Assembly (NCBI GenBank): GCA_027563935.2
Contig: CM050451.1
Location: 101,397,565-101,461,564, forward strand
Length of the DNA stretch: 64,000 nucleotides
Reading direction: 5' to 3'
Origin: Costus lasius
Lineage: Eukaryota > Streptophyta > Magnoliopsida > Zingiberales > Costaceae
The notes below the pieces were generated by a model. It was not told the origin of the DNA, ran no database searches, and saw only the letters and a list, made by a program, of their open reading frames with translations. Shown here in pieces: positions 1,861-52,374 of the stretch; the first letter of the stretch is position 1; each line of letters begins with the position of its first letter. The position numbers and the translations under genes are program-made.

Positions 1861-3572
1861 TGTTGGGGTATGCCCTTAAGGCTAATGTTTGAGGCCTTGG
1901 GATTGTATCAGTATCATGTAATAAACTCTTGTGTTTATAAAGGCATGGTTATTATTCAGGTTGTTACCTTGTCTGCTGTAATAAGTGTACTACTGAATAA
2001 TGTCTCAAAGCTGTTCAGCTAGGCTGACATGCTAAATGTCCTTAGTCGATATATCTTGGTGAACATGAGACAGCCTTGATATGGTTAAGACTAATATGTG
2101 TTCTAATCTTATAGGATGCTTCGAGCATGGAATAAGATGTAGACTCATAGGGTACATTGGATGTACTGGACAGACCCTACTAGGATATTCAATTGCTTGT
2201 CACAATATGAATAATCTTTATATGCTACAAGTGGCACATGTCCTTTGACTTGAGATCACTTGTGTTCCTAAATGATGAATGTCATTGTTTTGAGGTAGTT
2301 CAATATCATTTGAAATATAATGGTTATAGACTATCTTGGATAATGATCATGAGTCAGGTTAGGACACTAGTGATAGATAAAGGATTGCCGTCTCCTTGTT
2401 TAAGGAGTGTGATGTTCTAAGGCCCCCCCCTATATGAGATGATTGAGAAAGTGTATGGCCATACCCAGATGACTATGTTCATCTGATTTAATCATGCTCA
2501 TCGTATTGGAGTCACAAGCTTGACACGCTTGTCCAATAAGAACATCCAGTGGCAAAGGATACATGTATGCCTTGTGAAGTGGATTCACACTTGTGCTATG
2601 GTTTGGGTGTAGTCTTGGAAGACTCTTTCCTTTATATCGGGAGACAGTGATGTGTTGCTAGATACCCCTCACTGATCGTGATAATGTAAATTATTGTTAC
2701 CGACATTTAAAGGAAACCCTTAGGGTCGCACAATTTGATGATATGGCTTACTTGAGTCAGATCGTGTGGACTGAATTGTTTGGGTTCAGTTTAAAGGGAT
2801 TTAATCTCTGATTGTAAGTGAGATCTGGTCTGATCATGTTTGATTGATTAGGGCTTGAGATCGGTAAGCTTCGATCGAGAGAGATGATGCTAGATCGGTG
2901 AGATCAAGAGCATCATGAGATGAACGGTTCGATTGGAAACCTTAGGGTTTAGTTGATCTAGACCGATTGGCTTGGGCTGGCTTGGTTTGGCCTTTGGACC
3001 GAACACATTTACTTTGAACCGGTTCAAGAGCTTGAACGTATGGTTCATTGTTTTGGCGTTTTGATCGATTTAGTGATCATGAACGCATGGCTTAATGGAT
3101 TTTCCAATTTTGGAAAGTCATTTAGCGCATGTTCCCTTGAACGCCAAATGACTTGAACGCTCCATTCAACTCTCGTCTCCTTGCTCTTGCTTGACGAGAC
3201 TTTGGCGTGGAGAAGGCGAGGTCTTGGTGTGGAGGTTTGGCAAGCCTAGACATCATCTCTCATTTCCTTACCATACGAGAGGGACCCTTGAAGGACCTTG
3301 CTAGCACAAGGATCTCTAAGGAGCAAGCACATCATCTTGTGTGCGTCAACTAGGGAGAAGATCCCTTTCGATCTTTCTCTTCCAAGTCGCCATCTTCCTC
3401 ATGGCTTTGGTATGTATCTAAACTTCATCAAGTTGATCATATTATCTTGCTAAGATCCATGAAAAACCCTTGCTTCCGCTTGCAATTTTTATGCGCCACC
3501 CTTAAGGGTTTTTCGCCCCCCTCTTGAAAGGGGTTTCATCTGCTTGCGCTCCCCCTTGAAGGGGACTCTTCA
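1861..3572 (+). mobile_element. solo LTR S1, copia family A
   Basis: Starts TGTTGGGGTATGCC and ends GGGGACTCTTCA, 1712 bp, flanked by the perfect TSD GGTTG (1856-1860 and 3573-3577). There is no PBS, coding region or second LTR, so this is a solo LTR left by recombination between the two LTRs of a complete element. It holds the GTATGGCCATAC palindrome near 2455 and a conserved start/donor motif ATG GCT TTG|GTATGT at 3411-3425. The donor is a perfect plant 5' splice consensus. Confidence 0.95.
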
Positions 3573-4682: not shown

Positions 4683-5242
4683 ACCAAACACCGAAACCGT
4701 GATGAACTGTGATGAACTGGCTCATGAATGAGCGCATGGTTCAAAGTGAAGAGAAGTTTGCGCTTGGGTAAAACCAAAGTCGCATGAGAGCATGAACGTG
4801 GGAGTGGTTTTCTATTTTTAGAAACCATGACTCCTAAGCGTGGACACATCTCTCTCGCTTCATTCACACCTTGTCGCCGATTTTGGCTTAGGGTCTTGAG
4901 GCATTCTCGCGTGGAGGAGAGGCTAAGACGACAAGGAAGTTTTCGCCAAGGAGATCTCTCATCCTTTCCACTCGACAAAGGACCTTTGGAGAACCTTGCT
5001 AGCACAAGGATCAACAAAGAGTAGGTGACATCACCTTGTGTGCGCCACCTAAGGAGGAGATCCATTTCGCTCTCTCATTCCAAGACACCATCCAAGTGAT
5101 GGCAATGGTGAGTATCGCTTTTCATTATAAGTTGATCATATTACATGCTTTAAGATCGTATAAGAAACCCTAGATTCCGCTAGAAATTTTGTTGCGCCTC
5201 CTATTAGGGTTTCGCCCCCCCTCTCGAAAGGGGTTCCCTTCA
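4683..5242 (+). repeat. 3' fragment of a family A copia LTR inside S2
   Basis: Closely resembles the last 550 or so bases of the A1 LTR: the 'ctatttttagaaa' stretch, the 'ccttgctagcacaagg' motif, the start/donor motif ATG GCA ATG|GTGAGT at 5099-5113, and a C-rich/G-rich hairpin just before a terminal CCCTTCA. The LTR's 5' two-thirds and the PBS are absent. The right edge is the exact LTR terminus; the left edge falls in a short direct repeat (gatgaactgtgatgaactg). Confidence 0.82.
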
Positions 5243-12548: not shown

Positions 12549-14248
12549 TGTTGGAGTATGCCCTTAAGGCTAATGTTTGAGGCCTTTGGGAATGTAACAA
12601 GTATCATGTAATAAACTTTTATGTTTATAAAGGCATGGTTATTATTCAGGTTGCTACATTATCTGCTGCAATATATGTTCTTCTGAATAATGTCTCAAAG
12701 CTGTTCAGCTAGGCTGACATGCAGTTATGTCCTTAGTCAATATATCTTGGTGAACATGAGACAGCCTTGATATGCTTAAGACTAATATGTGTTCTAATCT
12801 TATAGGATGCTTCGAGCATGGAATAAGATGTAGACTCATGGGTACATTGGATGTACTGGACAGACCCTACTAGGATGTTCAATTGTTTGTCACAATGTGA
12901 ATATTCCTTGTGTATGACAAGTGGCACATTTCCTCTGACTTGAGATCACTTGTGTTTTCTAAATGATGATTGTCATTATTTTGAGATAGTTCAATATCAT
13001 TTGAAACATAATGATTATAGACTATCTTGGATAATGAGCTTGAATCAGGTTAGGGCACTAGTGATAGACATAGGATTGCCGTCTCCTTGTTTAAGGAGTG
13101 TGATGTTCAAAAGGGGCCCCCTGGATGAGATGATTGAGAAAAGTGTATGGCCATACCCAGGTGACTATGTTCATCTGATCTAATCATGCTCATCATATTG
13201 GAGTTACAAGCTTGACACGCTTGTCCAATAAGAATGTCCAGTGGTAAAGGAAATATGCATGCCTTATGAAGTCGATTCACACTTGTGTTGTTTTTGGGTG
13301 TAGTCTTGGAAGACTCATTCCTTTATATCGGGAGACAGTGATGTGTTGCTAGATACCCCTCACTGATCGTGATAACGTAAGTTGTCGTTACCGACATTTA
13401 AAGGAAACCCTCAGGGTCGCACAATTTGATGATATGGTTTACTTAAGTCAGATCGTGTGGACTGAATTATTTGGATTCAGTTTAATGGGATTTAATCTCT
13501 GATTGTAAGTGAGATCTTGTCTGATCATGTTTGATTGATTAGGGCTTGAGATCGGTAAGCTTCGATCGAGAGATTGGATGCTAGATCGGTGAGATCAGGA
13601 GCATCAAAGAGATGAACGGTTAGATCTGGAGCCTTAGGGTTTAATTGAGATCTAGACCATATTGCTTGGGTTAATTGGTCTTGGACCAAACCGAAATGAA
13701 CCAGCTCATTGGTTGAGCGTATGGTTCAATTTAAGAGAGGTTTGCGATTGGGGTAAACCCATGATCGCATATGGAAGAGTGGCTTTCTATTTTTAGAAAG
13801 CATGTCACTTACGTGACCACGATTCTTGTGGTCTCTCTTCACGCCTCCCTCTCGCTCTATTGTCGTCGCTTGACTTTGCTCTTGAGGCATTCTCTCGTAA
13901 AGAAGAGGTGGACGACATTGGGAGAGTTTTCGCCAAGCAAGAAATTTTTCTCTTCCCTTCCATTCGACAAGACAATCTTGGAGCCTTGCTAGCACAAGGA
14001 GCACCAAGATAGTAAACGCATCCTCATCTTGTGTGCGTGTCCTAAGGAGGAGATCTTCGTTGCTCTCTCTCTTCCAAGGTTTCATCCAGAAATGGCAATG
14101 GTATGGATCTTTGTCTTTTATCATCATGTGAAAAGTTGATCATATGAAATATTAGGATCCTATGAAACCTCAGTTTTCTATGCGATTTTTACATGCGCCA
14201 CCATATAGGGTTTCATACTTTGCGCTCCCCCTAGAAGGGGACTCTTCA
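12549..14248 (+). repeat. A1 5' LTR
   Basis: 1700 bp, TGTTGGAGT to CTCTTCA. Visible cis-signals: an AATAAA and a TATAAA-like stretch within the first 90 bp (either could be real; the transcription start is unknown); the palindrome GTATGGCCATAC at 13145-13156; a second TATAT-containing motif (TTTATATCGGGAGACAG) near 13322; and a CCCCT-AGA-AGGGG hairpin at 14228-14240 just before the end. Confidence 0.96.
14092..14106 (+). promoter_or_regulatory. mini-exon start codon and 5' splice donor (A1)
   Basis: ATG GCA ATG at 14092-14100 followed by GTATGG. The start context AGAAATGGC fits the plant initiation consensus. The donor lies 148 bp before the LTR end. Joined to the acceptor at 16057, the three codons plus seven codons of exon 2 run in frame into Gag at 16079. 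The same arrangement occurs in S1, the S2 fragment, A2, A3, A4 and A5 (donors GTATGT, GTGAGT, GTATGA, GTAAAG, GTATGA, GTATGA). Splicing itself is inferred. Confidence 0.7.
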
Positions 14249-14250
14249 AT

Positions 14251-14262
14251 TGGTATCAGAGC
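14251..14262 (+). other. primer-binding site of A1
   Basis: TGGTATCAGAGC, two bases after the LTR end; complementary to the 3' end of initiator Met-tRNA. Confidence 0.95.
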
Positions 14263-14994
14263 AGGTTTAATATGTTCATATAATTGCTTTGTGATTCCAT
14301 ATGCTTAGATCTACATAACATGTGAAATTTCATGATAGTGTTTATCAACTTGCGAAAATACATCCATATGTATGTTTCAATCTCTTGCGCATGTTTGATG
14401 TGTTGGCGCATATATAATGTTGTAAGTTTTCTTAAACTGTTAAACACATGCGCGACTCACTATAGATCTAAGACCTTGCTGTAAACCCTTAGACGGGTTA
14501 CTAGGGTTGAAGTCATCCCCTAGGTTAGATCCAAACAGTCTGATCAGACTATCTGACAGCCTGAATGGGTCGACCAGTTAGCACTTTGGCGCAAGCCTAT
14601 GGTGGCTATAGGTCGACTGCAGACAGGTGTGTAGCGATGTCTGATTGAGACAATCTATGAACACACATGAGTTAGGCCCGGGGTCACACCCGCTTGCCAG
14701 ACCTCATTGTGGTTGTTCAGCCCTGACGCATGCATGGTTGACCTTATGGTCGACTCAAGTCAGTTAGGACTTGGTGCATGCAAGGGCAGTGGATCTGACT
14801 AGGTTGAATGAGTGGATCCCTAGTAATGGACCGTTGTAAGGTTGTAGGGCAAATAAGGAAAAATTAAAATTGATCCCATGGGGTTTTTTCGAAAATTTTA
14901 ATTTTTATGATGGATCACATGATTGCTGATTGGATGCATATGTTTGTCTATTTAGTCTTATGTGGGCTGCCCATATTAATTGTGTGCTGTGCTG

Positions 14995-15132
14995 GGGCTT
15001 GCGTGCCTGGGATTTAAAAATTGTAAATTAATTATTGTGATCTGCGTATCACATTGCTTTAATTTATAAAATGTAATTGGCCTGCGTGTCAATCTTGTCT
15101 AGATAGTTAAATTTGTAATTTAATTAGACAAG
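14995..15132 (+). other. conserved stem-loop array in A1 leader
   Basis: Four successive hairpins. HP1: GGGC/GCCT with loop TTGCGT (14995-15008). HP2: TGTGAT/ATCACA with loop CTGCGT (15036-15053). HP3: ATTGGC/GTCAAT with loop CTGCGT (15076-15093). HP4: CTTGTCTA/TAGACAAG with an AT-rich inner stem (15094-15132). Stems differ from hairpin to hairpin and between A1-A4 with compensating changes, while the hexaloop CTGCGN persists. This points to selection on RNA structure. A role in packaging or dimerisation is inference. Confidence 0.8.
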
Positions 15133-15743
15133 AGCACAGAGCACACTTGGCAGAGGCGCATGCAGCTGTGGCTGGACCAGGTGGGAGGTCTAGGGTTCGA
15201 CCCTAGGACCTGGCGCATTTTCCTGGTGGGCGCACCAGAGCTGCAATTGGCGCTTGGGCCCTGGGTTGGGCCAGATGAGCAGCAAAAGACCCATGAAGAG
15301 CAAGTAAAGACTTAAGTTAGGTTAAGGTCTTACTAGGGCTATGGGCTTTTACCACATAAGATCCATGCTTTCTTTTAATGTTTAAATATTAGAATTGCAT
15401 GATTAGTTTATCTTCTGCTATCACCATAGGAATTGTATGATAGTGAAGAAGATAAAAGACCGTTAAAATCCAACGCTAAAATATCAAGCTCGTAAGCCTT
15501 CTGACGCGAAACCTCACTGTTCTGATTATCGTTGGAGCCGTGTTGTACCCACTCAGTGGGCACGTCCATCTATCTTCAGACGGTGTGGGATTACACCTGT
15601 GTGTTACAGAGTAGGGATTTATCCCTTCTCGTTGCTCAGCATAGCACATGGTGGTCCAGGGAGTAGGTCGGGTCAGCTTGACCATGTAGGCTACATATGT
15701 GGCGCATATGGTAGCACATGGAGGCAGCCATCTGTGGGATCAG

Positions 15744-15777
15744 AGACTGTGTTGTACCAACTCAGTTGGCACAGTCT
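15744..15777 (+). other. palindromic hairpin upstream of gag (A1)
   Basis: Outer stem AGACTGTG/CACAGTCT, inner palindrome CCAACTCAGTTGG. A sister motif with CCCACTCAGTGGG lies about 200 bp upstream (near 15548-15560). The two motifs share flanks but have different self-complementary arms, in A1, A2, A3 and A4. Confidence 0.7.
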
Positions 15778-16028
15778 GCTGGATTGCCCAGATGAAGGGG
15801 AATCGCACGGGTTGGCGATCGGCAGGGACTGCCTACCGGAGATTAGTGCTTGTACTCTCTGTGCATCTTATCTCGCCTGAGCGGGACGCGGAGACCAAGT
15901 ATGAAATCCGGATCCCATCTCACTAAAAGAGTGTCTACTCTTTCGGACTGTTTAATGGATTTTTCAGTCAGATAAAATAGTGAGAAAAAGGATCTTTCTT
16001 AAGTCCTGATTGATTCTTAACATTGATA

Positions 16029-16078
16029 CTGACCTTGCTGTTCTTGCATTGTTGTAGATACCTGCAGCAACGAACACC
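16029..16078 (+). promoter_or_regulatory. branch site, 3' splice acceptor and exon 2 start (A1)
   Basis: CTGAC (16029-16033) followed by a T-rich stretch and TTGTAG ending at 16057, 25 nt from the branch A. Exon 2 then has 21 nt (ATA CCT GCA GCA ACG AAC ACC) to the Gag ATG at 16079. Predicted intron 14101-16057, 1957 nt. Confidence 0.7.
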
Positions 16079-19000
16079 ATGAACTTCAATGTGCGATCCC
16101 TACTGGAAAGGGAGAAGTTTGGTGGGCCGAACTTCTCTGACTGGTTTGGACACCTTAAGATCGTTCTTAAGGCAGAGAGGAAACTGTATGTCCTCGAGAC
16201 GGCAATACCGCCTCAGCCCGCTCCGAACGCCGCAAGGGCGGTTCGGGAAGCCTATGAAAAGCACGTCAATGATAGCATTGATGTCGCTTGCCTGATGCTA
16301 GCGTCTATGACGCCACTGCTGCAGCGTCAGCATGAGGACATGTCTGCTATAGACATGATAACGAACCTCAAGATGTTGTATGCTGCACAGGCGAGGACTG
16401 AACGCTATAATTTGACTAAGCTGTTCTTTCAGAGCAAACTGGCTGAAGGGAGCCCAGTGGGAGCTCACGTGCTCAAGATGATTGGGCACAAGGAAGCTCT
16501 AGAGAAACTGGGGCATACCATCAACCAGGAGCTTGCTGTGGATATTATTCTGCAGTCTCTCCCACCTTCATTCGACGCGTTCATTATTAATTTTAATATG
16601 AACAAAATCGATTGTACTCCGGCAGAGCTGCTGAATATGCTCCTCACTACTGAGGAGACTCTGAAGGGAAAGCCTTCGACCTCTGTCTTGATGGTTCCTT
16701 CCAGGAACAAGAAGAAGGGGAAGAAGGGCAAGGCCCCTGTCAAGAATTACAGCAAGGCTCTGAAGCAGAAGGTGAAGCGGTCCAAGGAATACAGGTGTTT
16801 CCACTGTGGCCAGCTGGGTCACTGGAAAAAGGACTGTAAAGCGCTCCAAGGAGATAAGAGGGGAAGCTTTGCTTCTGGCTCAGGTATATTTGTGACTGAG
16901 GTCATGTTTTCTTCTTCTATATCATGGGTGTTGGACACTGCATGTGGAGTTCACATTTGTTCAAATGTACAGGAACTCAAGAGAAGAAGACAGGTGGGAC
17001 AGCATGAAGTGGACCTACGAGTTGGAAACGGGGCACGGGTTGCTGCTGTTGCTGTAGGAGACTATTTCATTTCTTTACCATCTGGACTTGTATTGGAACT
17101 AAACAGTTGTTATTTTGTTCCCAGTATTACTAAAAATATTATCTCCATTCCTGCTCTTGTCAGGAAGGGATTTTCCTTTGAATGCAATATTTCAAAGTGT
17201 ATTTTGTCTTTAGATAATATTGTTTATACAACTGGTTCAATTAGCAATGGGTTATTCATGTTGGACATGGAATGTTCGATACAGCAAATTGATATTAAGA
17301 AAGCCAAGTACGCTGATGACAGCACCTTGCTATGGCATAGTCGTTTAGGCCATATTAACGAGAAACGCATTAAGCGGTTGCATGATAATGGACTGCTGGG
17401 ATCATTCTCCTATAAGGAGATTGATACATGCAAGGCTTGTTTAATGGGTAAAATGACGAAGTCACCTTTTCCTCATAAAGGTCAAAGGGCTTCAGGTTTA
17501 CTTGACCTAATACACAGTGATGTGTGTGGGCCATTTAGTAAACATGCCAGAGGTGGCTATCAGTACTTCATTACCTTTACTGATGATTTCAGTAGATATG
17601 GTTATGTCTATCTGATGAGACATAAGAGTGAATCTTTTGACAAGTTCAAAGAGTTCAAGAATGAAGTACAAAATCAGCTAGGCCGAAATATCAAGACACT
17701 TCGCTCAGATCGAGGTGGAGAATACCTGAATCATACGTTTACTGACTATCTGAAGGAGTGTGGGATTATCTCACAGCTCACTCCGCCAGGAACACCGCAA
17801 TGGAATGGTGTGTCCGAAAGGAGAAATAGAACGTTACTTGATATGGTTCGTTCTATGATGAGTCAGGCTAATCTACCTTACTCCTTTTGGGGATTTGCAC
17901 TGGAAACAGCTGCAAAGGTACTAAACCGAGTGCCATCCAAGGCAGTTTCTAAGACTCCATATGAGTTATGGTATGGGAAACAGCCGAGCTTGACATTTAT
18001 CAGGATCTGGGGCTGCGAGGCTTATGTCAAAAAGCTCGCCTCTGGGAAACTAGAGAGCAGATCTGACAAATGTATCTTTGTCGGTTACCCTAAGGAAACT
18101 AAGGGTTATTATTTCTATAATCCCAAGGAGAACAAGGTTTTTGTTGCTCGGACGGCCATATTTCTTGAGAAGGAGTTTCTTCTGCGAGAGGCCAGTGGGA
18201 GAGAAATAAAGCTGGATGAGAATCCAGAGGAAGGACAAAGTGACCAAGCACAGTTGGATGAGCCTGAGCCGGTAGAACAGGTTATTGAACAACCTGAGGC
18301 TCAGATATCACGGGAACCGCGAAGATCGGGAAGGATCCGTCGACAGCCTGAGCGCTATGACGGAGTCTACATCATTGAAAATGATGAACCCCTCACTTAT
18401 GCGGATGCGGTCAGTGGACCGGAGTCAGCGAGATGGCTTGAAGCTATGCGCGCCGAGATGGACTCCATGTCAGATAACCAAGTCTGGGATTTGGTTGATC
18501 CGCCTCCGGGAGTAATCCCTATAGGCTGTAAATGGATCTTCAAGAAGAAGATTGACATGGATGGTAACGTAGTTACCTATAAGGGCAGGCTTGTTGCGAA
18601 AGGTTTCAAACAAATCTACGGGATAGATTATGATGAAACTTTCTCACCTGTGGCCATGTTTAAGTCTATTCGGATTCTTTTCGCGATAGCTGCATATTAT
18701 GATTATGAGATCTGGCAGATGGATGTGAAGACAGCTTTCCTAAATGGAAATCTGGATGAGGATGTGTATATGACACAACCTGAGGGTTTCACTAATCCAT
18801 CAGATCGTCATAAGATATGCAAGTTAAAGAAGTCCATTTATGGACTTAAACAAGCATCAAGAAGCTGGAATATTCGTTTTGATGAATCAGTCACTGAATT
18901 TGGTTTCATCAAGAACGAGGATGACCCGTGTGTATATAAGAGGTTTAGTGGGAGCATGATAACTTTCCTAGTCCTCTACGTCGATGATATCTTGATCATT

Positions 19001-19960
19001 GGAAACGATATTCCTGAAATGCATGCGGTTAAGACATGGTTAAGGAAATGTTTCCAGATGAAAGATCTAGGAGAAGCAGCCTATGTGTTAGGTGTGAAGA
19101 TCTACAGGGATAGATCTAAGAGGCTTCTCGGGCTGTGCCAGAGTACTTACATCGATAAAGTCCTGGAGAGATTTCATTTAGAGAATTCTAAATGAGGATA
19201 TCTTCCAGTCAGACATGGTCTGAATCTTTCGAAGAGTCAGTGTCCACAAACACAGACTGAGAAAGATGAAATGGACAATACGCCTTATGCTTCGGCTATT
19301 GGTTCCATTATGTATGCGATGTTGTGTACTCGCCCAGACGTCGCTTACGGGTTAAGCGTGACCAGTCGTTTTCAAAGTAATCCAGGTTTGGCGCACTGGA
19401 TTGCAGTCAAGAACATCCTAAAATATCTGCGGAGGACCAAAGATATGTTCTTGATATATGGTGGTCAGGAAGAACTCAGTATTGAAGGATATACTGACGC
19501 TTCGTTCCAGTCGGACCAGGATGATTTCCGATCGCAATCAGGCTATGTTTTTAGCTTGAATGGAGGTGCAGTGGTGTGGAAGAGTTTCAAACAGTCAACT
19601 GTTGCTGATTCCACAACAGAAGCCGAGTATGTTGCAGCCTCGGAAGCATCCAAGGAGGCAGTATGGATTCGTAAGTTCGTAAGAGAACTTGGTGTTGTTC
19701 CTTCGAGTGCAGATCCTTTGGTTATCTTCTGTGATAACACTGGAGCAATCGCACAAGCAAAGGAACCACGGTCGCACCAGAAGTCCAAGCACATACAGAG
19801 AAGGTTTCATTTGATCAGGGAGATCATAGATCGTGGCGAGATCAAAATCTGCAAGGTTCATACAGATGACAATCTGGCAGACCCGCTTACCAAGCCTCTG
19901 GCGCAGCAGAAGAATGAGAAGCACTGTAATAACATGGGTTTGAGATTTCTCAACCATTAG
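16079..19960 (+). pseudogene. gag-pol: copia Gag-Pol polyprotein with a single nonsense codon (A1)
   Basis: 1293 codons in one frame with one internal TGA at 19193-19195 (Arg CGA to TGA fits). Domains, approximate residues: Gag 1-235; zinc knuckle CFHCGQLGHWKKDC at 240-253; aspartic protease LDTACG with Asp near 286; integrase HHCC zinc region about 418-460; catalytic Asp about 481 (HSDVCGPF), Asp about 544 (RSDRGGEY) and Glu about 580 (SERRNRT); reverse transcriptase from about 815 with YVDD about 966; RNase H from about 1130 (YTDASF, STTEAEY, CDNTG). The order PR-INT-RT-RH is copia. The stop falls just before RNase H, so a truncated product would lack that domain. ATG at 16079 is used here; the spliced start adds about 10 residues. 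Confidence 0.95.
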
Positions 19961-19980: not shown

Positions 19981-21680
19981 TGTTGGAGTATGCCCTTAAG
20001 GCTAATGTTTGAGGCCTTTGGGAATGTAACAAGTATCATGTAATAAACTTTTATGTTTATAAAGGCATGGTTATTATTCAGGTTGCTACATTATCTGCTG
20101 CAATATATGTTCTTCTGAATAATGTCTCAAAGCTGTTCAGCTAGGCTGACATGCAGTTATGTCCTTAGTCGATATATCTTGGTGAACATGAGACAGCCTT
20201 GATATGCTTAAGACTAATATGTGTTCTAATCTTATAGGATGCTTCGAGCATGGAATAAGATGTAGACTCATGGGTACATTGGATGTACTGGACAGACCCT
20301 ACTAGGATGTTCAATTGTTTGTCACAATGTGAATATTCCTTGTGTATGACAAGTGGCACATTTCCTCTGACTTGAGATCACTTGTGTTTTCTAAATGATG
20401 ATTGTCATTATTTTGAGATAGTTCAATATCATTTGAAACATAATGATTATAGACTATCTTGGATAATGAGCTTGAATCAGGTTAGGGCACTAGTGATAGA
20501 CATAGGATTGCCGTCTCCTTGTTTAAGGAGTGTGATGTTCAAAAGGGGCCCCCTGGATGAGATGATTGAGAAAAGTGTATGGCCATACCCAGGTGACTAT
20601 GTTCATCTGATCTAATCATGCTCATCATATTGGAGTTACAAGCTTGACACGCTTGTCCAATAAGAACGTCCAGTGGTAAAGGAAATATGCATGCCTTGTG
20701 AAGTCGATTCACACTTGTGCTGTTTTTGGGTGTAGTCTTGGAAGACTCATTCCTTTATATCGGGAGACAGTGATGTGTTGCTAGATACCCCTCACTGATC
20801 GTGATAACGTAAGTTGTCGTTACCGACATTTAAAGGAAACCCTCAGGGTCGCACAATTTGATGATATGGTTTACTTAAGTCAGATCGTGTGGACTGAATT
20901 ATTTGGATTCAGTTTAATGGGATTTAATCTCTGATTGTAAGTGAGATCTTGTCTGATCATGTTTGATTGATTAGGGCTTGAGATCGGTAAGCTTCGATCG
21001 AGAGATTGGATGCTAGATCGGTGAGATCAGGAGCATCAAAGAGATGAACGGTTAGATCTGGAGCCTTAGGGTTTAATTGAGATCTAGACCATATTGCTTG
21101 GGTTAATTGGTCTTGGACCAAACCGAAATGAACCAGCTCATTGGTTGAGCGTATGGTTCAATTTAAGAGAGGTTTGCGATTGGGGTAAACCCATGATCGC
21201 ATATGGAAGAGTGGCTTTCTATTTTTAGAAAGCATGTCACTTACGTGACCACGATTCTTGTGGTCTCTCTTCACGCCTCCCTCTCGCTCTATTGTCGTCG
21301 CTTGACTTTGCTCTTGAGGCATTCTCTCGTAAAGAAGAGGTGGACGACATTGGGAGAGTTTTCGCCAAGCAAGAAATTTTTCTCTTCCCTTCCATTCGAC
21401 AAGACAATCTTGGAGCCTTGCTAGCACAAGGAGCACCAAGATAGTAAACGCATCCTCATCTTGTGTGCGTGTCCTAAGGAGGAGATCTTCGTTGCTCTCT
21501 CTCTTCCAAGGTTTCATCCAGAAATGGCAATGGTATGGATCTTTGTCTTTTATCATCATGTGAAAAGTTGATCATATGAAATATTAGGATCCTATGAAAC
21601 CTCAGTTTTCTATGCGATTTTTACATGCGCCACCATATAGGGTTTCATACTTTGCGCTCCCCCTAGAAGGGGACTCTTCA
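19981..21680 (+). repeat. A1 3' LTR
   Basis: 1700 bp. It matches the 5' LTR except for about four sites seen by eye (for example CG at 20168 versus CA in the 5' copy; AACGTCC versus AATGTCC). It is followed by the TSD GATCT. Confidence 0.97.
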
Positions 21681-26014: not shown

Positions 26015-27745
26015 TGTTGGGGTATGCCCTTAAGGCTAATGTTTGAGGCCTTGGGATTGTATGAGTATCATGTAATAAACTCTTATGTTTATAAAGGCAT
26101 GGTTATTATTCAGGTTGTTACCTTGTCTGCTGTAATAAGTGTACTTCTGAATAATGTCTCAAAGCTGTTCAGCTAGGCTGACATGCATATGTCCTTAGTC
26201 GAGATATCTTGGTGAACATGAGACAGCCTTGATATGATTGAGACTAATATGTGTGCTAATCTTATAGGATGCTTCGAGCATGGAATAAGATGTAGACTCA
26301 TGGGTACATTGGATGTACTGGACAGACCCTACTAGGATATTCAATTGCTTGTCACAATGTGAATAATCCTTGTAAGCACCAAGTGGCACATGTCCTTTGA
26401 CTTGAGATCACTTGTGTTTCTAAATGATGAATGTCATTATTTTGAGGTAGTTCAATATCATTTGAAACATAGTGATTATAGACTATCTTGGATAATGATC
26501 ATGAGTCAGGTTAGGACACTAGTGATAGATAAAGGATTGCCGTCTCCTTGTTCAAGGAGTGTGATGTTCTAAAGGGCCCCCCTGTATGAGATGATTGAGA
26601 TAGTGTATGGCCATACCCAGATGACTATGTTCATCTGATCTAATCATGCTCATCGTATTGGAGTTACAGGCTTGACATGCTTGTCCAATAAGAACATCCA
26701 GTGGCAAAGGAAACATGTATGCCTTGTGAAGTGGATTCACACTTGTGCTGTGGTTTGGGTATAGTCTTGGAAGACTCTTTCCTTTATATCGGGAGACAGT
26801 GATGTGTTGCTAGATACCCCTCACTGATCGTGATAACGTGAGTTGTCGTTACCGACATTTAAAGGAAACCCTTAGGGTCGCACAATTTGGTGATATGACT
26901 TACTTGAGTCAGATCGGGTGGACTGGATTGTTTTGATTCAGTTTAAAGGAGTTTAAACTCTGATTGTAAGTGAGATCCAGTCTGATCATGTTTGATTGAT
27001 TAGGGCTTGAGATCGGTAAGCTTCGATCGAGAGTGTGGATGCTGGATCGAAGAGATCAAGAGCATCAAAAGATGAACGGTCAGATTTTGAACCTTAGGGT
27101 TTAATTTGGTCTGAACCGATTCTTGGGCTGATTTGGTTTGGTCATTGGACCAATTAAATTGAACCGGCTCAAATGTGAGCGCTTGGTTCATTTGAGAGGA
27201 GAGCTAAGCGTTTGGTTCACTTCATGTGAACGCATAACGCATGCTTTGAAGACTTGCCAATTTTGGCATGTCGGTTTGGCAAAGGTGATGAATGTTGACA
27301 CATTTCGATCACAAGGTTTTGCGAACGCTCATCTCCTCTTTGCTCTTGACGAGACACACATCCTTCGGTGGTGTATGTTGACGAGGAGAAGCATCGGCCA
27401 AGAGAGACTTCATCATCTCCTTCCATTCGACAAGGAAGCTTGGGTGCCTTGCTAGCACAAGTGACGCCAAGCAAGTAAGAGATCTTCACCTTGTGTGTGA
27501 ACTTTTGGAGGAGATCAAAGTTGCTCTCTTCTTCCAAGCCGATATCCAACTTCATGGCGTTGGTATGATCCCTTTAAAGATCCTTTCGCTTATACATAAG
27601 TTAACCATATGATCTACATGCGGTCTTGAGGGTGACACCCCTTAAACTAGCACATGCGCCACCCCCTTTAGGGTTTCACCCTTTGCGCCCCCCCTCTTGA
27701 AAGGGGTTTTATCCGCTTGCGCTCCCCCTTGAAGGGGACCCAACA
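26015..27745 (+). repeat. A2 5' LTR
   Basis: TGTTGGGGT to GGGACCCAACA, 1731 bp. GTATGGCCATAC lies near 26608. Two GC hairpins (CCCC..TTGAA..GGGG) lie near 27690-27740. Short frames in it (for example 27217-27555) recur identically in the 3' LTR and are not independent genes. Confidence 0.96.
27554..27568 (+). promoter_or_regulatory. mini-exon start and splice donor (A2)
   Basis: ATG GCG TTG|GTATGA; predicted intron 27563-29486 (1924 nt). In frame with Gag at 29508 through seven exon 2 codons. Confidence 0.68.
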
Positions 27746-27747
27746 AT

Positions 27748-27759
27748 TGGTATCAGAGC
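27748..27759 (+). other. primer-binding site of A2
   Basis: TGGTATCAGAGC, two bases after the LTR. Confidence 0.95.
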
Positions 27760-29486
27760 ATAGGGTTCTTGTAGATTCATATGATTGCTTCATGTTGCTT
27801 GTTTGTGATCCTAATATGCCAACGCATGTGATAGATCTATCTTGAAGTTTCACCATGTATCTAGTTGCGCATGTCATGTAGATGAAAGCTTCTTACATTG
27901 TTGTTGCGCATGTTGTAGTTGTTTTTACCTAAAAAGTTGTTACATCTTGCGCGCTCCATTTAGATCTAATGGCGCCTACTATAAACCCTTAGATGGGTTG
28001 ATGGGGTTGAAGTCACCTCTTGGTTAGATCCAATAGTCTGATCAGACCATCTGACAGCCTAGATGGATCGACCAGATGGCACCTGTGTGCAAGCATGAGG
28101 TGGCCATAGGTCGATTGCATCTTAGGCGTGTAGCGAGGTCTGGTTGAGACAACCAGTGAACACACATGAGTTAGGCCCGGGGTCACACCCGCTTGCCAGA
28201 ACTCATGAGGGTTGTTCAACCCTTGGCGCATGCATGGTTGACCATTAGGTCAACTCGGGTCAGTTAGGACTCGGTGCATGCAAGGGCAGAGGATCTGACC
28301 AGATGGATGAGTGGATCCCTATCAATGGACCATTGTAAGGTTGTAGGGCTCATAAGAAAATTAAAATTGATGCCAATGGGGTTTTCAAAATTTTATTTTC
28401 TTGTAAAAGGATCACATGTTGATTGATGCCATGATGCTTGTCTATTTATTCTTATGTGGGCTGCCCATGTTAAATGTGTGCTGTGCTGGGGCCTGCGTGC
28501 CTGGAATTACACTTGGAAATTAATTTGTGATCTGCGAATCACATTTTTAATTAATTTATTGTATAATTGACCTGCGAGTCAAACTTGTCTAGATAGATCA
28601 AATTGTATTTGATTAGACAAGAGCACAAAGGCACACATCCTAGAGGGGCATTCACCTGGTGGCGCACCTGTGGTGCTCTTGGCGCTAGGGCTCTGGGTTG
28701 GACCAGATGAGATGCAAAAGTCCCAAGAAGAGCAAGTGAAGACTTAAGTTTCTTAAGGTCTTACTTAGGCTTTGGGCTTTTACCACATAAGATCCATGCT
28801 TTCTTTTTATTGCTTATATAATTAGAACTGCATGAGTTTATCTTCTGCTATCACCATAGGATTTGCATGATAGTGAAGAAGATAAAAGACCGTTAAAATC
28901 CAACGCTAACATATCAAGCTCGTAAGCCTTCTGACGCGAAACCTCACTGTTCTGACTATCGTTGGAGCCGTGTTGTACCCACTCAGTGGGCACGTCCATC
29001 TATCTTCAGACGGTGCTGGATTACACCTGCGTGTTACAGAGAAGGGATTTATCGCTTCTCGTTGCTCAGCATAGCACGTGGTGGTCCAGGGAGTAGGTCG
29101 GGTCAGCTTGACCATGTAGGTTACATATGTGGCGCATATGATAGCACATGGAGGCAGCCATCTGAGGGATCAGAGACTGTGTTGTACCAACTCAGTTGGC
29201 ACAGTCTGCTGGATTGCCCAGGTGAAGGGGAATCGCACGGGTTGGCGATTGGCTGGGACAGCCTACTAGAAATTAGTGCTTGTCATCTCTGTGCATCTTA
29301 TCTCGCCTGAGCGGGACGCGGAGACCAAGTATGAAATCTGGATCCCATCTCACTAAAAGAGTGTTACTCTTTCGGACTGTTTACTGGATTTTTCAGTCAG
29401 ACAAAATAGTGAGAAAAGAATCTTTCTTAAGTCCTGGATTGATTCTGAACATTGATACTGACCTTGCTGTTCTTGCATTGTTGTAG
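27760..29486 (+). other. A2 leader with stem-loop array and splice acceptor
   Basis: Non-coding. The array at 28489-28621 has GGGC/GCCT, TGTGAT/ATCACA and TTGAC/GTCAA stems around CTGCG(T/A) loops, then CTTGTCTA/TAGACAAG with an ATCAAA/TTTGAT inner stem. Palindromic hairpin AGACTGTG/CACAGTCT at 29174-29207. Branch-like CTGAC at 29458-29462 and TTGTAG ending at 29486. Confidence 0.78.
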
Positions 29487-43518: not shown

Positions 43519-45201
43519 TGAAAGGCCCCTATTCAAGGGGGTGAAACCCTAAGCATGCGCAAACTTAAGACTTTGCATGGGCGGAATTAGGGTTTGCAAA
43601 GGATCGCATATGATATGTCTATATAATCAACTTCTTTTAATTCAAAGATCAAGTTAAGATCTTTACCATAGCCATGAAGAAGGAGTCGGCTTGGAAGTGA
43701 GAGATCAAGATAGATCTCCTCCAAAGTGTGCCACACACAAGATGAAGTTGGCTCACTCCTTGGCGTCCCTTGTGCTAGCAAGTCACCCAAGTATTCTTCT
43801 CGAATGGAAAGGGATGATGAGAGATCAAGCTTGGCCGAGAGCTCCACACCTTCGTCCACCACTTCTTCCACGCAATAAAATTGCAAGAAGCCAATTGAAG
43901 TTCGATCAATCCCCTCTTTACCACATGGAAGCGTTTTGGTTTTCAACATAGAAAACCGCCTTCCATAAATGGTAAGTGTTAATGGGTGCGTTCACTCCAA
44001 GTGAGCGCTCGAAACTTCCCACTAATTGAACCAAACGTTCACATGGTGAACCGGTTCTATTAGGTTTGGTTCAAGATGTTAATTAAGCCAAGCCACTTGG
44101 TCTAGACCACATTGAACCCTAAGGCTCAAGATCTAACCGTTCATCTCCTGCTGTTCCTGATCTCACCGATCCAGCATCATCTCTCTCGATCGAAGCTTAC
44201 CGATCTGAAGCCCTAATCAATCAAACATGATCAGACCAGATCTCACTTACAATCAGAGATTAAACCCCTTTAAACTGAACCCAAAGAATTCAGTCCACAC
44301 GATCTGACTCAAGTAAGCCATATCATCAAATTGTGCGACCCTAAGGGTTTCCTTTAAATGTCGGTAACGATAACCTACGTTATCACGATCAGTGAGGGGT
44401 ATCTAGCAACACATCACTGTCTCCCGATATAAAGGAAAGAGTCTTCCAAGACTACTCCCAAACCATAGCACAAGTGTGAATCAAACTCACAAGGCATACA
44501 TGATTCCTTTGCCACTGGATGTTCTTATTGGACAAGCTTGTCAAGCCTGTAACTCCAATACGATGAGCATGATTAGATCAGATGAACATAGTCATCTGGG
44601 TATGGCCATACACTATCTCAATCATCTCATAAGGGGGCCCTTTAGAACATCACACTCCTTAAACAAGGAGACGGCAATCCTATGTCTATCACTAGTGTCC
44701 TAACCTGACTCATGATCATTATCCAAGATAGTCTATAATCATTATGTTTCAAATGATATTGAACTATCTCAAGACAATGACAATCATCATTTAGAAACAT
44801 AAGTGATCTCAAGTCAAAGGACATGTGCCACTTGCTGCTTACAAGGATCATTCACATTGTGACAAGCAATGGAATATCCCAGTAGGGTCTGTCCAGTACA
44901 ACCAATGTACCTATGAGTCTACATCTTATTCCATGCTCGAAGCATCCTATAAGATTAGCACTCATATTAGTCTCAATCATATCAAGGCTGTCTCATGTTC
45001 ACCAAGATATCTCGACTAAGGACAAAGAGCATGTCAGCCCAGCTGAACAGCTTTGAGACATTATTCAGAAGTACACTTATTACAGCAGACAAGGTAACAA
45101 CCTGAATAACAACCATGCCTTTTATAAACATCAAAGTTTATTACATGATACTTTTACAATCCCAAGGCCTCAAACATTAGCCTTAAGGGCATACCCCAAC
45201 A
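43519..45201 (-). repeat. A3 5' LTR
   Basis: 1683 bp, matching the 3' LTR; the TSD GCATG follows at 45202-45206. GTATGGCCATAC near 44601. Confidence 0.96.
43661..43675 (-). promoter_or_regulatory. mini-exon start and splice donor (A3)
   Basis: Minus-strand ATG GCT ATG|GTAAAG. Predicted intron from 43666 to 41715 (1952 nt), in frame with Gag at 41693. Confidence 0.68.
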
Positions 45202-47054
45202 GCATGCCCCCAGAATGAGGGAGGTAGAGTTGCATGACTCATCATAGATCGAACCATATCCAATAAAGTTTGATTTCTCCTTTCAGATACACCATTCCAT
45301 TGAGGTGTTCCAGGAGGAGTGAGTTGGGATATGATCCCACACTCTCTCAGATAGTCATAGAACTCACCGCTCAGGTACTCTCCACCTCGATCTGATCGAA
45401 GAGCTTTAATGGATCTTCCAAGCTGGTTCTCTACTTCATTCTTGAACTCCTTGAATTTCTCAAAGGACTCAGATTTATGTCTCATTAAGTAGACATAGCC
45501 ATACCTACTGAAGTCATCAGTGAAGGTAATGAAGTAGTTGTACCCTCCTCTGGCTTGTTTATTGAAAGGCCCACACACATCAGTATGTATGAGATCCAAT
45601 AAACCTCCTGCCCTCTCACCAATCTTGGTGAAGGGTGCTTTTGTCATTTTCCCTAATAAGCAAGGCTCACAAGTATCAAATTCCTCCAAGGAACTTGAAT
45701 CTAACAACCCATTTGCTTAGAGTTGTTGGATGCGATTCTTGTTTATATGGGCTAATCGACAGTGCCATAGGAAAGCACCAACTGAACCACTCAGTTTGGT
45801 CCTTTTATTACTTATGTTACAAATAGAACTTTCCATATCCAAGATATATAGACCATTGCATAAAGTACCCTTCCCATAGAACATATTTGCAAATGAAAAA
45901 GAACAAGAGTTCTTATTTATTTCAAATTTAAATCCCTTCTTTGCTAAGCAAGGAATGGATACAATGTTCTTCATTAGTGCTGGTACATAAAAGCAATTAT
46001 CTAGTTCTAATTGAAGTCCAGAAGGCAAGGAGAGAGTCAAAATGTCTACAGCAACAGCAGCAACCTGTGCCCCGTTTCCAACGCGTGCGTCAATCTCCCC
46101 AGGCCGCACCGATCTACTTTTCTTGAGCCCCTGCATATTTGTACAAATATGAGCTCCACATGCGGTATCCAATACCCATGACATAGAAGTAGAAAGATTG
46201 ACTTCTGTAACATAGATACCTGAGCTATAAGCAAAGGTCAAGCCTTTCTTCTCCTCATTCTGAAGCTGCTTGCAGTCCCTTCTCCAGTGACCCTACTCGC
46301 CACAATGGAAACACCTCTGGTCTTTTGACTTCTTCGCCTTTTTCTTCAGTGCTTTGGTGGGACCCTTGGCACTGCTCTTAGCACGTGCCTTACCCTTCTT
46401 CTTTATCTTCTTGGTCGCAGGGACCAAAAGAACAGAATTAGGTTTGGTCTTACCCATCTCTCGCTCGGCTGTTTGGAGCATATTCAACAATTCCTCCCGT
46501 GTGCAATCAATCCGGTTCATGTTGAAGTTAATGATAAACGGACTGAAGCTAGGGGGCAGGGAATGTAGAATAAGATCCACAACCAACTCGTTGTCTATGG
46601 CATGTCCCAGTCTCCTTAGATGATTCACATTCCCAATGAGTTTGAGAACATGGGGTCTCACTAGTGCACCCTCAGACAACTTACACCGAAAGACTGCTTT
46701 GGCAGTGTCAAATCTCTCAGTTCTAGCCTGAGCCTCGAACATCTGTTTCAGATGAGTGTTCATCTGAAAAGCGTTCTGCTCTTCATATTGCACCTGCAGT
46801 TCAGGTGCCATACTGGCTAGCATAAGACATGCAACCTCCAAAGAGTCATCCTGATGCTTTCTATAAGCATCTCTTTCTGCCGTTCGGGCATTAGGCAGAG
46901 GAGCCGCAGGAAGAGCCTGTTCAAGGACATACAGCTTCTTCTCGAGCTTGAGGACTATCCTCAAGTTCCGATGCCAGTCCATAAAGTTAGGTCCAACTAA
47001 CTTATCCTTATCAAGGAGGGATCGTAGTGATAATCCGCCAGTGTTCGTAGCCAT
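45202..47054 (-). pseudogene. B1 Gag, protease and integrase (two nonsense codons)
   Basis: ATG at 47054 in the context AACAATGGCT, an excellent plant start. Gag (RSLLDKDKLVGPNFMDW, then the conserved CLMLASM and RIDCTREELLNML blocks) runs to the zinc knuckle CFHCGE, where TAG at 46293-46295 cuts the CCHC before GHWRRDC. The frame continues: protease LDTACGAH (near 46170) and the integrase zinc region HCRLAHINKNR, then TAA at 45717-45719, then HTDVCGPF, RSDRGGEYL, SERRNQTLLDM up to FWGHA, where A3 is inserted. No frameshift. Confidence 0.94.
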
Positions 47055-47501
47055 TGTTCTACAACACCCAAGAAAAACATATTAGTACTACTTCGAATCA
47101 TTTAAACTGGACTTGTTTTAAATGATTACTGCTCCCACTATTTTAAATTCGAATTGACAACCCACAAAGTCAATCGGAAAGTTTAAGACTTCCTAGTGAG
47201 ATGGGATCCTTATTTCACATGAGGCTTCGCGTCCCACGAGGGTGGGATGAGATGCACGAAGTAACCCATGTTCCTAAGGTGGGCACGCCGGCCGGTTGCT
47301 CCAAGCAACTCCCCTTGCTGAGACAGTCTGGGCATTTCATGTCCAGCGAGGGCTGGATACAACATGAAACCCTATCCTCTCAACGATGCCTCTAGACTTT
47401 CACCATGTGCCCAGCGCATGTGAACTTCTAGTCAAGTCCATTCCTAACCGTTATGCCCAGGGCCAACGAGTTTCCTTGCGAAGGCACGCCCAGGTTAAAA
47501 C
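47055..47501 (-). other. B1 leader with hairpin domain and splice acceptor
   Basis: Minus strand: TTGTAG ending at 47059 sits four bases before the Gag ATG. Hairpins at 47225-47369: CTTCG/CGAAG enclosing TCCCAC/GTGGGA (tetraloop GAGG on the plus strand); GTTGC/GCAAC; and TTTCATG/CATGAAA enclosing TCCAGC/GCTGGA (tetraloop GAGG). B2 has the same set with compensating changes. A4 interrupts the leader at 47502 (target AAAAC). Confidence 0.75.
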
Positions 47502-49173
47502 TGTTGGGGTATGCCCTTAAGTCTAATGTTTGAGGCCTTGGGATTATATCAGTATCATGTATAAACTCAATATTTATAAAGGCAATGGTTGTTATTCAGT
47601 TTGTTACATTATCTGCAGCAATATGTATACTTCTGAATAATGTCTCAATGGTGTTCAACTTGGCTGACATGCAGTGTTGTCCTTAGTCGAGATATCTTGG
47701 TGAACATGAGACAACCTTGGTATGATTGAGACTAATATGTGTTCTAATCTTATAGGATGCTTCGAGCATGGAATAAGATATAGACTCATAGGTACATTGG
47801 ATGTACTGGACAAACCCTACTAGGATATTCAATTGCTTGTCACAATATGAATAATCCTTGTATGCAACAAGTGGCATATTTCCTCTGACTTGAGATCACT
47901 TGTGTTTCTAAATGATGATTGGCATTGTTTTGAGGTAGTTCAATATCATTTGAAACATAATAGTTATAGACTATCTTGGATAATGAGCATGAGTCATGTT
48001 AGGGCACTAGTGATAGATATAGGATTGCCGTCTCTTTGTTTGGAGTGTGATGTTCTAAAGGGGCCCCCTGGATGAGATGATTGAGAAAGTGTATGGCCAT
48101 ACCCAGATGACTATGTTCATCTGATCTAGTCATTCTCATCATATTGGAATTACAGGCTTGACACGCTTGTCCAATAAGAACGTCCAGTGGCAAAGGAAAC
48201 ATGTATGCCTAGTGAAGTGGATTCACACTTGTGCTGTGGTTTGGGTGTAGTCTTGGAAGACTCTTTCCTTTATATCGGGAGACGGTGATGTGTTGCTAGA
48301 TACCCCTCACTGATCGTGATAACGTAAGTTATCGTTACCGACATTTAAAGGAAACCCTCAGGGTCGCACAATTTGATGATATGGCTTACTTAAGTCAGAT
48401 CGTGTGGACTGAATTGTTTTGGTTCAGTTTAAAGGGATTTAAACTCTGATTGTAAGTGAGATCTGGTCTGATCATGTTTGATTGATTAGGGCTTGAGATC
48501 GGTAAGCTTCGATCGAGAGTATTGATGCTAGATCGGTGAGATCAAGTGCATCTAGAGATGAACGGTTAGATCATTGAACCATTTGGTTTGATAAGATCTA
48601 GACTATGGCTTGGGCTGATTTGGTTTGGTCATCGAACCAAATGTAATTGAACCAGCTCATGTGTGAGCGCATGGTTCAAAGGGAGAGTGATGAGCGTTCG
48701 GTTCACTTGGAATGAACGCATAACGCATGAACGCATGAAGCTTGCTATTTTTGGAAGTTCCAAAATAGAAACGCCTCCACGTTCGGCAACGTTCTTCTCT
48801 CGTCGCCATTTGCTCTCACGTGTGGTGAAAGGAGTTCACGCCAAGGAGAAGTTTTCGGCAAACCAAGAAAAGAGGTCATCTCATCTTCCCTTCACGCATC
48901 AGGATTCTTGGAGATCCTTGCTAGCACAAGGAACGACAAGGAGTAGGCGATTGATCATCTTGTGTGCGTCTGCTTTGGAGGAGAGCCTCATCGTTCTCTG
49001 CTTCCAAATCGCCATCCAAAGCAATGGCTATGGTATGAATCCTTTTCATCTATACAAACCTTAACAAGTTGATCATATGTTCTTGCGAAAGATCTTTAGA
49101 AACCCTTGCTTCCGCTATGAAAATTTTATATGCGCCTCCTATTAGGGTTTCGCACCCTTTTTGGGGACTTTCA
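47502..49173 (+). repeat. A4 5' LTR
   Basis: 1672 bp, TGTTGGGGT to GGGGACTTTCA. It is more diverged from A1-A3 than they are from each other and has lost the C-rich arm of the terminal hairpin. GTATGGCCATAC near 48092. Start/donor motif ATG GCT ATG|GTATGA at 49024-49038 in the context AGCAATGGC. Confidence 0.93.
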
Positions 49174-50674: not shown

Positions 50675-52374
50675 TGAAGGAACCCCTAAAATAGGGGGGC
50701 AAAAACCCTAAGCATGGCGCTTATGAAAAGTATGCTAGCGGAAGCAAGGGTTTAAAATCATTTGCATGCCATATATTCAACTATAACCGATTGAATAGGT
50801 TGAGATGAAAATCATACCAACGCCATATGCTTGGAAGTCGGTTTGGAAGAAGAGATCAATTTAGGTCTCCTCCACAAGTCCACACACAAGATGAAGATGC
50901 TCACTTCCTTGAGATCTCTTGTGCTAGCAAGACTCCCAAGCCTTCTTGTCGAATGGAAGGGGATGATGAATCTCCTTGTTGCCGAGAGCTCTACTTGCCC
51001 AACCTCTCCTTCTCGTCGTCAATCACCACTCAACCAAAGTCGAATGCATTGAAGAGAAGAGAGCAAACGCATATGCGTTTTTGGCATTGAAGTGAGTGAA
51101 ACCGGCCCTTGATGACTTTCCATAAATGGAAGCTCATCAAGTCCATGCGCTCAACTCAACCCAAACGCATTTTAGGATTGAACCATGCGTTCACCATTGT
51201 GAACCGGTTCAAACCAAAATGTCAAATCGGCTTTGGTTCAACAAACCAAACCGAAATAGCTCTAGCCACTTGGTCTAGACCAAATTGAACCCCAAGGCTC
51301 ATGATCCAACCATTCATCACCTGATGCCCCTGATCTCTCCGATCTAGCATCATCTCTCTCGATCGAAGCTTACCGATCTCAAGTCCTAATCAATCAAACA
51401 TGATCAGACCAGATCTCACTTACAATCAGAGATTAAATCCCTTTAATCTGAACTCAAAGAATCCAGTCCACACGATCTGACTTAAGTAAGCCATATCATC
51501 AAATTGTGCGACCCTGAGGGTTTCCTCTAAATGTCGGTAACGATAACTTACGTTATCACGATCAGTGAGGGGTATCTAGCAACACATCACTGTCTCCCGA
51601 TATAAAGGAAAGAGTCTTCCAAGACTACTCCCAAACCATAGCACAAGTGTGACTCAATTCACAAGGCATACATGTGTCCTTTGCCACTGGATGTTCTTAT
51701 TGGACAAGCGGGTCAAGCTTGTAACTCCAATACAATGAGCATGATTAGATCAGATGCACATAGTCATCTGGGTATGGCCATACACTATCTCAATCATCTC
51801 ATATAGGGGGGCCCTTAGAACACCACACTCCTTAAACAAGGAGACGGCAATCCTATGTCTATCACTAGTGCCCTAACCTGATTCAAGCTCACCATCCAAG
51901 ATAGTCTATAATCATTATATTTCAAATGATATTGAACTACCTCAAGACAATGACAATCATCATTTAGAAACACAAGTGATCTCAAGTCAGAGGACATGTG
52001 CCACTTGCTGCATACAAGGATCATTCACATTGTGACAAGCAATGGAATATCCCAGTAGGGTCTGTCCAGTACATCCAATGTACCCATGAGTCTACATCTT
52101 ATTCCATGCTCGAAGCATCCTATAAGATTAGCACTTATATTAGTCTCAATCATATCAAGGCTGTCTCATGTTCACCAAGATATCTCGACTAAGGACATAT
52201 AGCCTGTCAGCCTAGCTGAACAGCTTTGAGACATTATTCAGAAGTACACTTATTACAGCAGACAAGGTAACAACCTGAATAACAACCATGCCTTTTATAA
52301 ACATAAGAGTTTATTACATGATACTTATACAATCCCAAGGCCTCAAACATTAGCCTTAAGGGCATACTCCAACA
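50675..52374 (-). repeat. A5 3' LTR
   Basis: 1700 bp; minus strand TGTTGGAGT (as in A1) to GGGGTTCCTTCA. Terminal hairpin CCCCTA/TAGGGG. Start/donor motif ATG GCG TTG|GTATGAT at 50811-50826. GTATGGCCATAC near 51771. Confidence 0.95.

Follow-up and report, generated by a model that had tools for sequence, protein, structure and literature searches.

How one retroelement RNA can act as both messenger and genome is a long-standing question, and the retrotransposon family considered here raises it through its start codon: where does translation of its Gag-Pol polyprotein begin? The family, termed family A, lies in a stretch of 64,000 nucleotides (nt) of the genome of Costus lasius (assembly GCA_027563935.2, contig CM050451.1, positions 101,397,565 to 101,461,564), and this whole stretch is referred to as the window. 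Family A is a Ty1/copia long terminal repeat (LTR) retrotransposon. Its element A1 has paired LTRs with TG...CA ends (12549-14248 and 19981-21680, 4 mismatches over 1700 bases), a flanking GATCT target duplication, a tRNA-type primer-binding site (PBS), TGGTATCAGAGC, and a polyprotein with the Pfam domains Retrotran_gag_2, zf-CCHC, gag_pre-integrs, rve and RVT_2, which is the copia order with integrase before reverse transcriptase. A leader of ~1.8 kb separates the PBS from the Gag frame. The start codon of Gag-Pol very probably lies in the LTR and would be joined to Gag by splicing out the leader. A preliminary description of the window had proposed as much, with Gag-Pol translated from spliced RNA, and the proposal is strongly supported by sequence, from the conservation of the LTR start, the depletion of AUGs ahead of it and the existence of copies in which the apparent Gag start codon is ACG.

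The putative start is a mini-exon of three codons, ATG GCN (A/T)TG, followed directly by a GT splice donor. A search for the anchor TTGCTAGCACAAGG with no more than 2 substitutions finds ten LTRs in the window, and all carry the mini-exon as had been described, seven of them independent and three the 3' LTR twins (mini-exons from 3401, 5099, 14092, 21524, 27554, 34951 and 49024 on the plus strand and from 50826, 43675 and 36262 on the minus strand). One coordinate needs correction, that of the LTR S1, whose donor was placed at 3411; its ATG is at 3401 and its donor at 3410. A further 30 copies, picked with the LTR unseen, come from the first 100 entries in a genome listing of acceptor places, all of which lie on one contig; for 20 the leader was taken together with the LTR end, and for 10 a short piece of the LTR. 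ATG GCN and the GT donor (ATGGCN..GGT) are present in 30/30 of this blind sample (20/20 leaders and 10/10 short stretches), so that the proposed start is kept in further family members; the third codon is (A/T)TG in 28 and TCG in 2. The mini-exon lies 136-196 nt from the PBS in the 20 sampled leaders.

The manner in which the mini-exon is conserved is informative. When 37 copies were grouped into 29 clusters, with the motif itself used to locate the block and no exclusion of copies for lacking it, ATGGC and GGT were each fixed in 29/29 clusters, whilst codon 2 varied freely at its wobble base (T in 10, G in 8, C in 2, A in 9), the first base of codon 3 was A in 18 and T in 11, and the fifth intron base was G in 28. 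Columns flanking the block reach 0.34-0.83. This pattern, with codon bases 1 and 2 fixed, the wobble free and the GT and +5 G kept, is the one to be expected of coding triplets that run into a splice donor. The plant-type AATGGC context claimed earlier for the start holds for the G at +4 and the C at +5, which are invariant, but not for position -1, where A is found in 10 of the 29 clusters.

At the other end of the predicted intron, CTGAC, a pyrimidine-rich tract and TTGTAG 21 nt before the ATG of the long Gag frame are present in A1, A2 and A3, as had been reported, and joining donor to acceptor keeps the frame in all three, across introns of 1957, 1924 and 1952 nt respectively. The same is apparent in a set of 23 copies, made up of the 20 leaders from one contig and A1-A3, in which both splice sites were found by motif and none was excluded. 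CTRAY lies 25-26 nt from the acceptor in 23/23, the acceptor TAG is an in-frame stop directly before exon 2 in 23/23, and the joined exons read MA(M/L/S) followed by IPAATNT-M in one open frame in 23/23, so that conservation of phase holds in further members too. The intron length modulo 3 is 0, 1 and 2 in 8, 6 and 9 copies, therefore only splicing preserves the frame, and as the acceptor TAG is always an in-frame stop no unspliced frame supplies the Gag N-terminus. Read from the acceptor, the frame stays open over all 341 codons retrieved in 15/20 leaders. The isoleucine codon of exon 2 is, genome-wide, ATC in 51 copies and ATG in 25.

A cross-check that does not depend on the leader started from the zinc knuckle of Gag. 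Among 100 listed exact places of a zinc-knuckle block, 76 lie inside the stretch covered by the acceptor listing, and 71 of these have an exact acceptor block 658-754 nt upstream, at exactly 744 nt in 62 and in phase in 66. The five misses are two cases of LTR sequence in the opposite orientation (by eye), one single mismatch and two with ACG for ATG. Over the whole genome the acceptor block has 14,129 + 14,126 matches with up to 2 mismatches (reversed control 0) and the zinc-knuckle block 15,451 + 15,443 with up to 3 (control 0). Family A is therefore extremely abundant, with ~28,000-31,000 matches to diagnostic blocks of 30-32 nt in a genome of 1.28 Gb.

In unspliced RNA the mini-exon ATG would open a reading frame of 4-42 codons, and in 14/23 copies this frame has 4 codons and ends at the TGA of GTATGA. 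It might thus be supposed that the mini-exon is a short upstream open reading frame (uORF) in unspliced RNA, from which ribosomes shunt over the leader to the Gag ATG in a pararetrovirus-like manner; pararetroviral leaders do use a short 5'-proximal uORF, according to the part of PMC5902531 that was available. The stop is, however, unconserved, with uORFs of 6-42 codons in 9/23 copies, and no common stem follows the short frame in 8 copies (z -2.4 to +1.1; by eye), a stem of the whole leader not having been tested. Shunting also leaves the conservation of GT and +5 G, the branch site and the phase unexplained, as well as the ACG copies discussed below, of which 8 of the 10 read have no in-frame AUG until residue 80. 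As an account of the mini-exon it is most improbable.

The sequence ahead of the mini-exon argues further for a start in the LTR. In 27 copies (the 20 leaders from one contig and the 7 independent window LTRs), ATG triplets number 20-36 per 25-nt bin from -375 to -250 relative to the mini-exon, drop to a sum of 11 between -250 and -176, and from -175 to the mini-exon there is 1, compared with a mean of ~69 for three control triplets. No AUG occurs in the last 200 nt before the mini-exon in 24/27 copies. First-order resampling of the 23 copies gives 62.7 ATGs expected over the 250 nt that precede the mini-exon against 10 seen, and 1,134.5 expected inside the leader against 1,136 seen. It seems that selection has removed AUGs ahead of the mini-exon but left those that follow it, and the leader is, as the preliminary description held, full of upstream ATGs, with 43-56 per leader in the 23 copies. 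All 27 copies have a TATA-like motif, at a distance of 272-317 nt upstream from the mini-exon ATG. A stricter proposition, that most copies have no transcribed AUG earlier than that of the mini-exon, fails: if the RNA is assumed to start 30 nt past the TATA-like motif, 13/27 copies are without an AUG ahead of the mini-exon.

The same part of the LTR has a hairpin, CYTTG-CTAGCA-CAARG, common to the LTRs and placed ~105 nt upstream of the mini-exon (13984-13999 in A1). In 29 copies, representing 20 distinct versions, pairs 1-4 form in 20/20 and pair 5 in 18, and pairs 4-5 occur as C-G, T-A and T-G types. The sequence TGCTAGCA is self-complementary and may resemble dimer-initiation loops.

A third line of evidence comes from copies without the internal Gag ATG. 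The exact block with ACG replacing this ATG has 771 + 727 = 1,498 genome matches (control 0), with several variants of codons 1-2 among 100 listed matches. Ten such copies were read and all are open over 82 codons, with the first in-frame Met at residue 80 in 8/10, at residue 38 in one and at residue 48 in one. They form one clade among 33 ATG copies (FastTree). Over codons 9-79 the ratio of nonsynonymous to synonymous differences (pN/pS) is 0.162 for the ACG copies (45 pairs) and 0.168 for the ATG copies (527/528 pairs, one pair below 85% identity being excluded), and in the ACG copies third positions make up 16/28 variable sites (p 0.008) and 11/13 informative sites (p 2e-4), these p values treating sites as independent. 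In the two ACG copies whose LTRs were read the mini-exon is intact, and the two LTRs are different. As the ten are open, constrained and of one clade, a lineage has spread that keeps a constrained Gag N-terminus without the ATG that an open reading frame finder would choose.

ACG is itself a usable near-cognate start codon. The internal ATG, or ACG in its place, could then be reached in unspliced RNA by internal ribosome entry or reinitiation, and the internal ATG is indeed present in most copies. An ACG start would still need passage beyond the leader AUGs, counted as 43-56 in the set of 23 copies and not in the leaders of ACG copies, and the same number stands ahead of the internal ATG in those 23 leaders. 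Moreover, the codons upstream of the internal ATG align with coding sequence of relatives, and AUG depletion ends at the mini-exon rather than at Gag. Such internal initiation is given very little credence. A further possibility is that the LTR donor acts on Gag by way of the poly(A) site, as in foamy virus, in which the major donor is an LTR site that precedes the poly(A) signal, and its loss abolishes Gag by premature polyadenylation (PMC3694450, as far as the available portion describes it). This would leave the invariant ATGGC with its free wobble, the upstream AUG depletion and the ACG copies unexplained, and as the explanation of the donor it is marginally the least probable of those considered; it may nevertheless be compatible with a start in the LTR, and operate in addition to it.

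A number of points weigh against a spliced start in the LTR. The splicing itself is inferred from sites and frame in genomic DNA. The genome sample covers a single contig, its copies are related, and the p values overstate independence because copies share descent. At +4 the donor matches only modestly (T in 23/29 clusters), the start context is unconserved at -3 (A/G in 12/29 clusters), and two copies, L044 and L096, have the mini-exon ATG GCA TCG (Ser), the sole departures from (A/T)TG seen. At least one AUG stands between the assumed RNA start and the mini-exon in 14/27 copies, mostly far from the mini-exon, and the frame from the acceptor stops early in 5/20 leaders, which are dead copies. 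No spliced retrocopy was found in the genome: the exact junction pattern gave 2 matches, both unrelated by eye (one without visible tie to the family, one inside the apparent Gag of another element), and a longer pattern, searched with a tolerance of 3 mismatches, had 50 matches, every one at 3, whose matched letters are those of acceptor variants (flanks unread). The absence of such copies would be expected because spliced RNA would lack the PBS, and it fits the proposed splice but gives it no support. No entry in the protein databases was recognised as an N-terminus of family A that is spliced or derived from a transcript, the sole close match (P0106, 88%) beginning inside Gag and being silent on the N-terminus, and a scan of viral contigs gave no relative.

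Relatives of family A suggest where the arrangement came from. The Gags of cotton (MAANTNTLSLRS), hibiscus (MANNTISLRS) and further database rows (MASNTPNNLSLRS) align to family A from AATNT onward and start MAANTNT, MANNT or MASNT; the rows with MANNNNNNSTMSLRS align only from query residue 10-14, and likewise start MA. In two rows, P0050 and P0071, the frame continues upstream of MA, therefore they do not have this intron position in common with family A. A sister family in the window, family B (926 + 976 genome matches to its block with up to 2 mismatches, control 0), begins Gag in the conventional way, immediately past an acceptor-like site. Its Gag ATG follows TACTAAT, a run rich in T and then TTGTAG, with four bases between the last of these and the ATG, and one copy has 26 AUGs within 975 nt before the Gag start. 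Family B possibly has an intron in its 5' untranslated region (UTR), with the start codon in exon 2. It is likely that the ancestor had a leader intron with the start just past the acceptor, and that the start of family A later moved into exon 1, across the pre-existing intron, because family B and the relatives begin MA(T/N/A)NT in the Gag exon; the direction of this move and the splicing of the family B leader are both deductions from these comparisons.

If the start does lie in the LTR, expression of family A may be pictured as follows. Transcription would begin ~30 nt past the TATA-like element, which leaves about 240-290 nt to the mini-exon, and ribosomes would scan a largely AUG-cleared 5' UTR to ATG GCN (A/T)TG, the unspliced and spliced RNAs sharing cap, UTR and AUG. 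Unspliced RNA would retain the PBS and leader and thus be a reverse-transcribable genome, in which the AUG yields a short peptide only: its frame meets a stop not far past the donor, and the acceptor TAG is a further stop. Removal of the ~1.95 kb leader intron would place three LTR codons, IPAATNT and Gag-Pol in frame, so that spliced RNA encodes MA(M/L)IPAATNT-Gag-Pol. Since the predicted intron contains the PBS, the translated RNA would lose it and could not be reverse-transcribed from that PBS. A single splice could thus serve as the translation switch and at the same time keep the messenger from being reverse-transcribed. It is judged fairly probable that one obligatory splice keeps the messenger and genomic RNA pools wholly apart, the spliced RNA being the only Gag-Pol messenger and uncopyable, the unspliced copyable and unable to be translated into Gag, and that each LTR, solo LTRs included, is a portable first exon.

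Such an exon would consist of a promoter, an AUG-poor 5' UTR, a start codon and a phase-0 donor, and could start proteins at any downstream phase-0 host acceptor, making the LTR a mobile first exon and a route to chimeric host genes. Annotation of Gag from the first ATG of the long open reading frame would also be wrong for very many copies in the genome. The features of the window on which this account draws are collected below.

Table. Positions in the window of the features of family A and of the family B start
Feature	Positions	Strand	Remarks
A1 5' LTR	12549..14248	+	TG...CA, 1700 nt, 5-bp duplication GATCT
TATA-like element CTATTTTTAGAAA	13787..13799	+	putative promoter role
ATG-free stretch of A1, putative 5' UTR	13805..14091	+	reaches the mini-exon ATG
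A1 mini-exon ATG GCA ATG (Met-Ala-Met), putative Gag start	14092..14100	+	from sequence; then GTATGG
A1 predicted leader intron	14101..16057	+	1957 nt, GTATGG...TTGTAG
A1 PBS TGGTATCAGAGC	14251..14262	+	within predicted intron
Branch-point-like CTGAC	16029..16033	+	
Acceptor TTGTAG	16052..16057	+	TAG doubles as in-frame stop in unspliced RNA
Exon 2 codons 1-7 (IPAATNT)	16058..16078	+	AATNT aligns to Gag N-terminus of other plants
Rest of A1 Gag-Pol frame	16079..19195	+	from internal Met, previously taken as Gag start; Pfam domains
A2 mini-exon ATG GCG TTG	27554..27562	+	predicted intron 27563-29486; exon 2 from 29487
A3 mini-exon ATG GCT ATG	43667..43675	-	predicted intron 43666-41715; exon 2 from 41714
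S1 LTR mini-exon ATG GCT TTG	3401..3409	+	then GTATGT
S2 LTR mini-exon ATG GCA ATG	5099..5107	+	then GTGAGT
A4 LTR mini-exon ATG GCT ATG	49024..49032	+	then GTATGA
A5 LTR mini-exon ATG GCG TTG	50818..50826	-	then GTATGA
Sister family B start	47052..47064	-	TTGTAG (47064-47059), AACA, ATG GCT ACG AAC ACT from 47054

The window also holds a long element at 52.7-60.7 kb on the minus strand (frame 54274-58953, PBS 59064 on the minus strand), which seems to have inserted into a family A copy with A5 as its 3' LTR.

Splicing of plant Ty1/copia RNA has itself been described; the comparisons that follow rest on those portions of the cited sources that were available. The barley element BARE1 (PMC3735527) and EVD/ATCOPIA93 of Arabidopsis (PMC12786077) have an alternatively spliced intron inside gag-pol, and its removal gives a Gag-only mRNA. 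Both are like family A in being plant Ty1/copia elements in which splicing divides RNA between translation and replication. They differ in that their intron is inside gag-pol, whereas the predicted intron of family A lies before Gag, holds the PBS and supplies the start of the polyprotein; it ends 21 nt before the internal Met, and no search for a second intron in gag-pol was made. Spliced Gag transcripts were also found by nanopore sequencing for copia elements of triticale (PMC7765848) and sunflower (PMC7730604), where splicing is described as freeing Gag from a longer Gag-Pol frame. For one triticale element 560 bp were recovered from RNA and 3,200 bp from DNA, the intron being unplaced in the accessible text, so that a leader intron is possible there (PMC7765848).

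Two viruses offer further parallels. In rice tungro bacilliform virus (RTBV) a donor within a short leader open reading frame is spliced to a downstream one (PMC5902531), and the predicted sites and frame of family A have the same form, with the donor in a short leader frame joined in frame in 23/23 copies. RTBV, however, fuses this leader to the distal ORF IV and makes its other long open reading frames from unspliced RNA, whereas the family A acceptor is directly before Gag-Pol, which is proposed to be splice-dependent itself. Foamy virus resembles family A in having an LTR splice donor, one that is needed for Gag expression (PMC3694450), but that donor suppresses polyadenylation, Gag is made from full-length genomic RNA, and no LTR start codon is described in the portion available.

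Amongst plant Ty3/gypsy elements, Diaspora of soybean has a long leader, with predicted donors inside the LTR and predicted acceptors close to the gag start (PMC1142308), although in the accessible part of that paper the sites are predicted without a test of frame or conservation; the same 2005 paper states that no intron upstream of gag had been reported at that time. Ogre is like family A in that an intron is needed to complete the polyprotein frame (survey PMC6317226). No description of an LTR-encoded Gag start was found in the literature searched, most subscription journals being outside the search and the sources being seen in part. Retroelement splicing is known in several forms, and what appears to differ in family A is a Gag start that is encoded by the LTR and would be joined to Gag by a leader intron.

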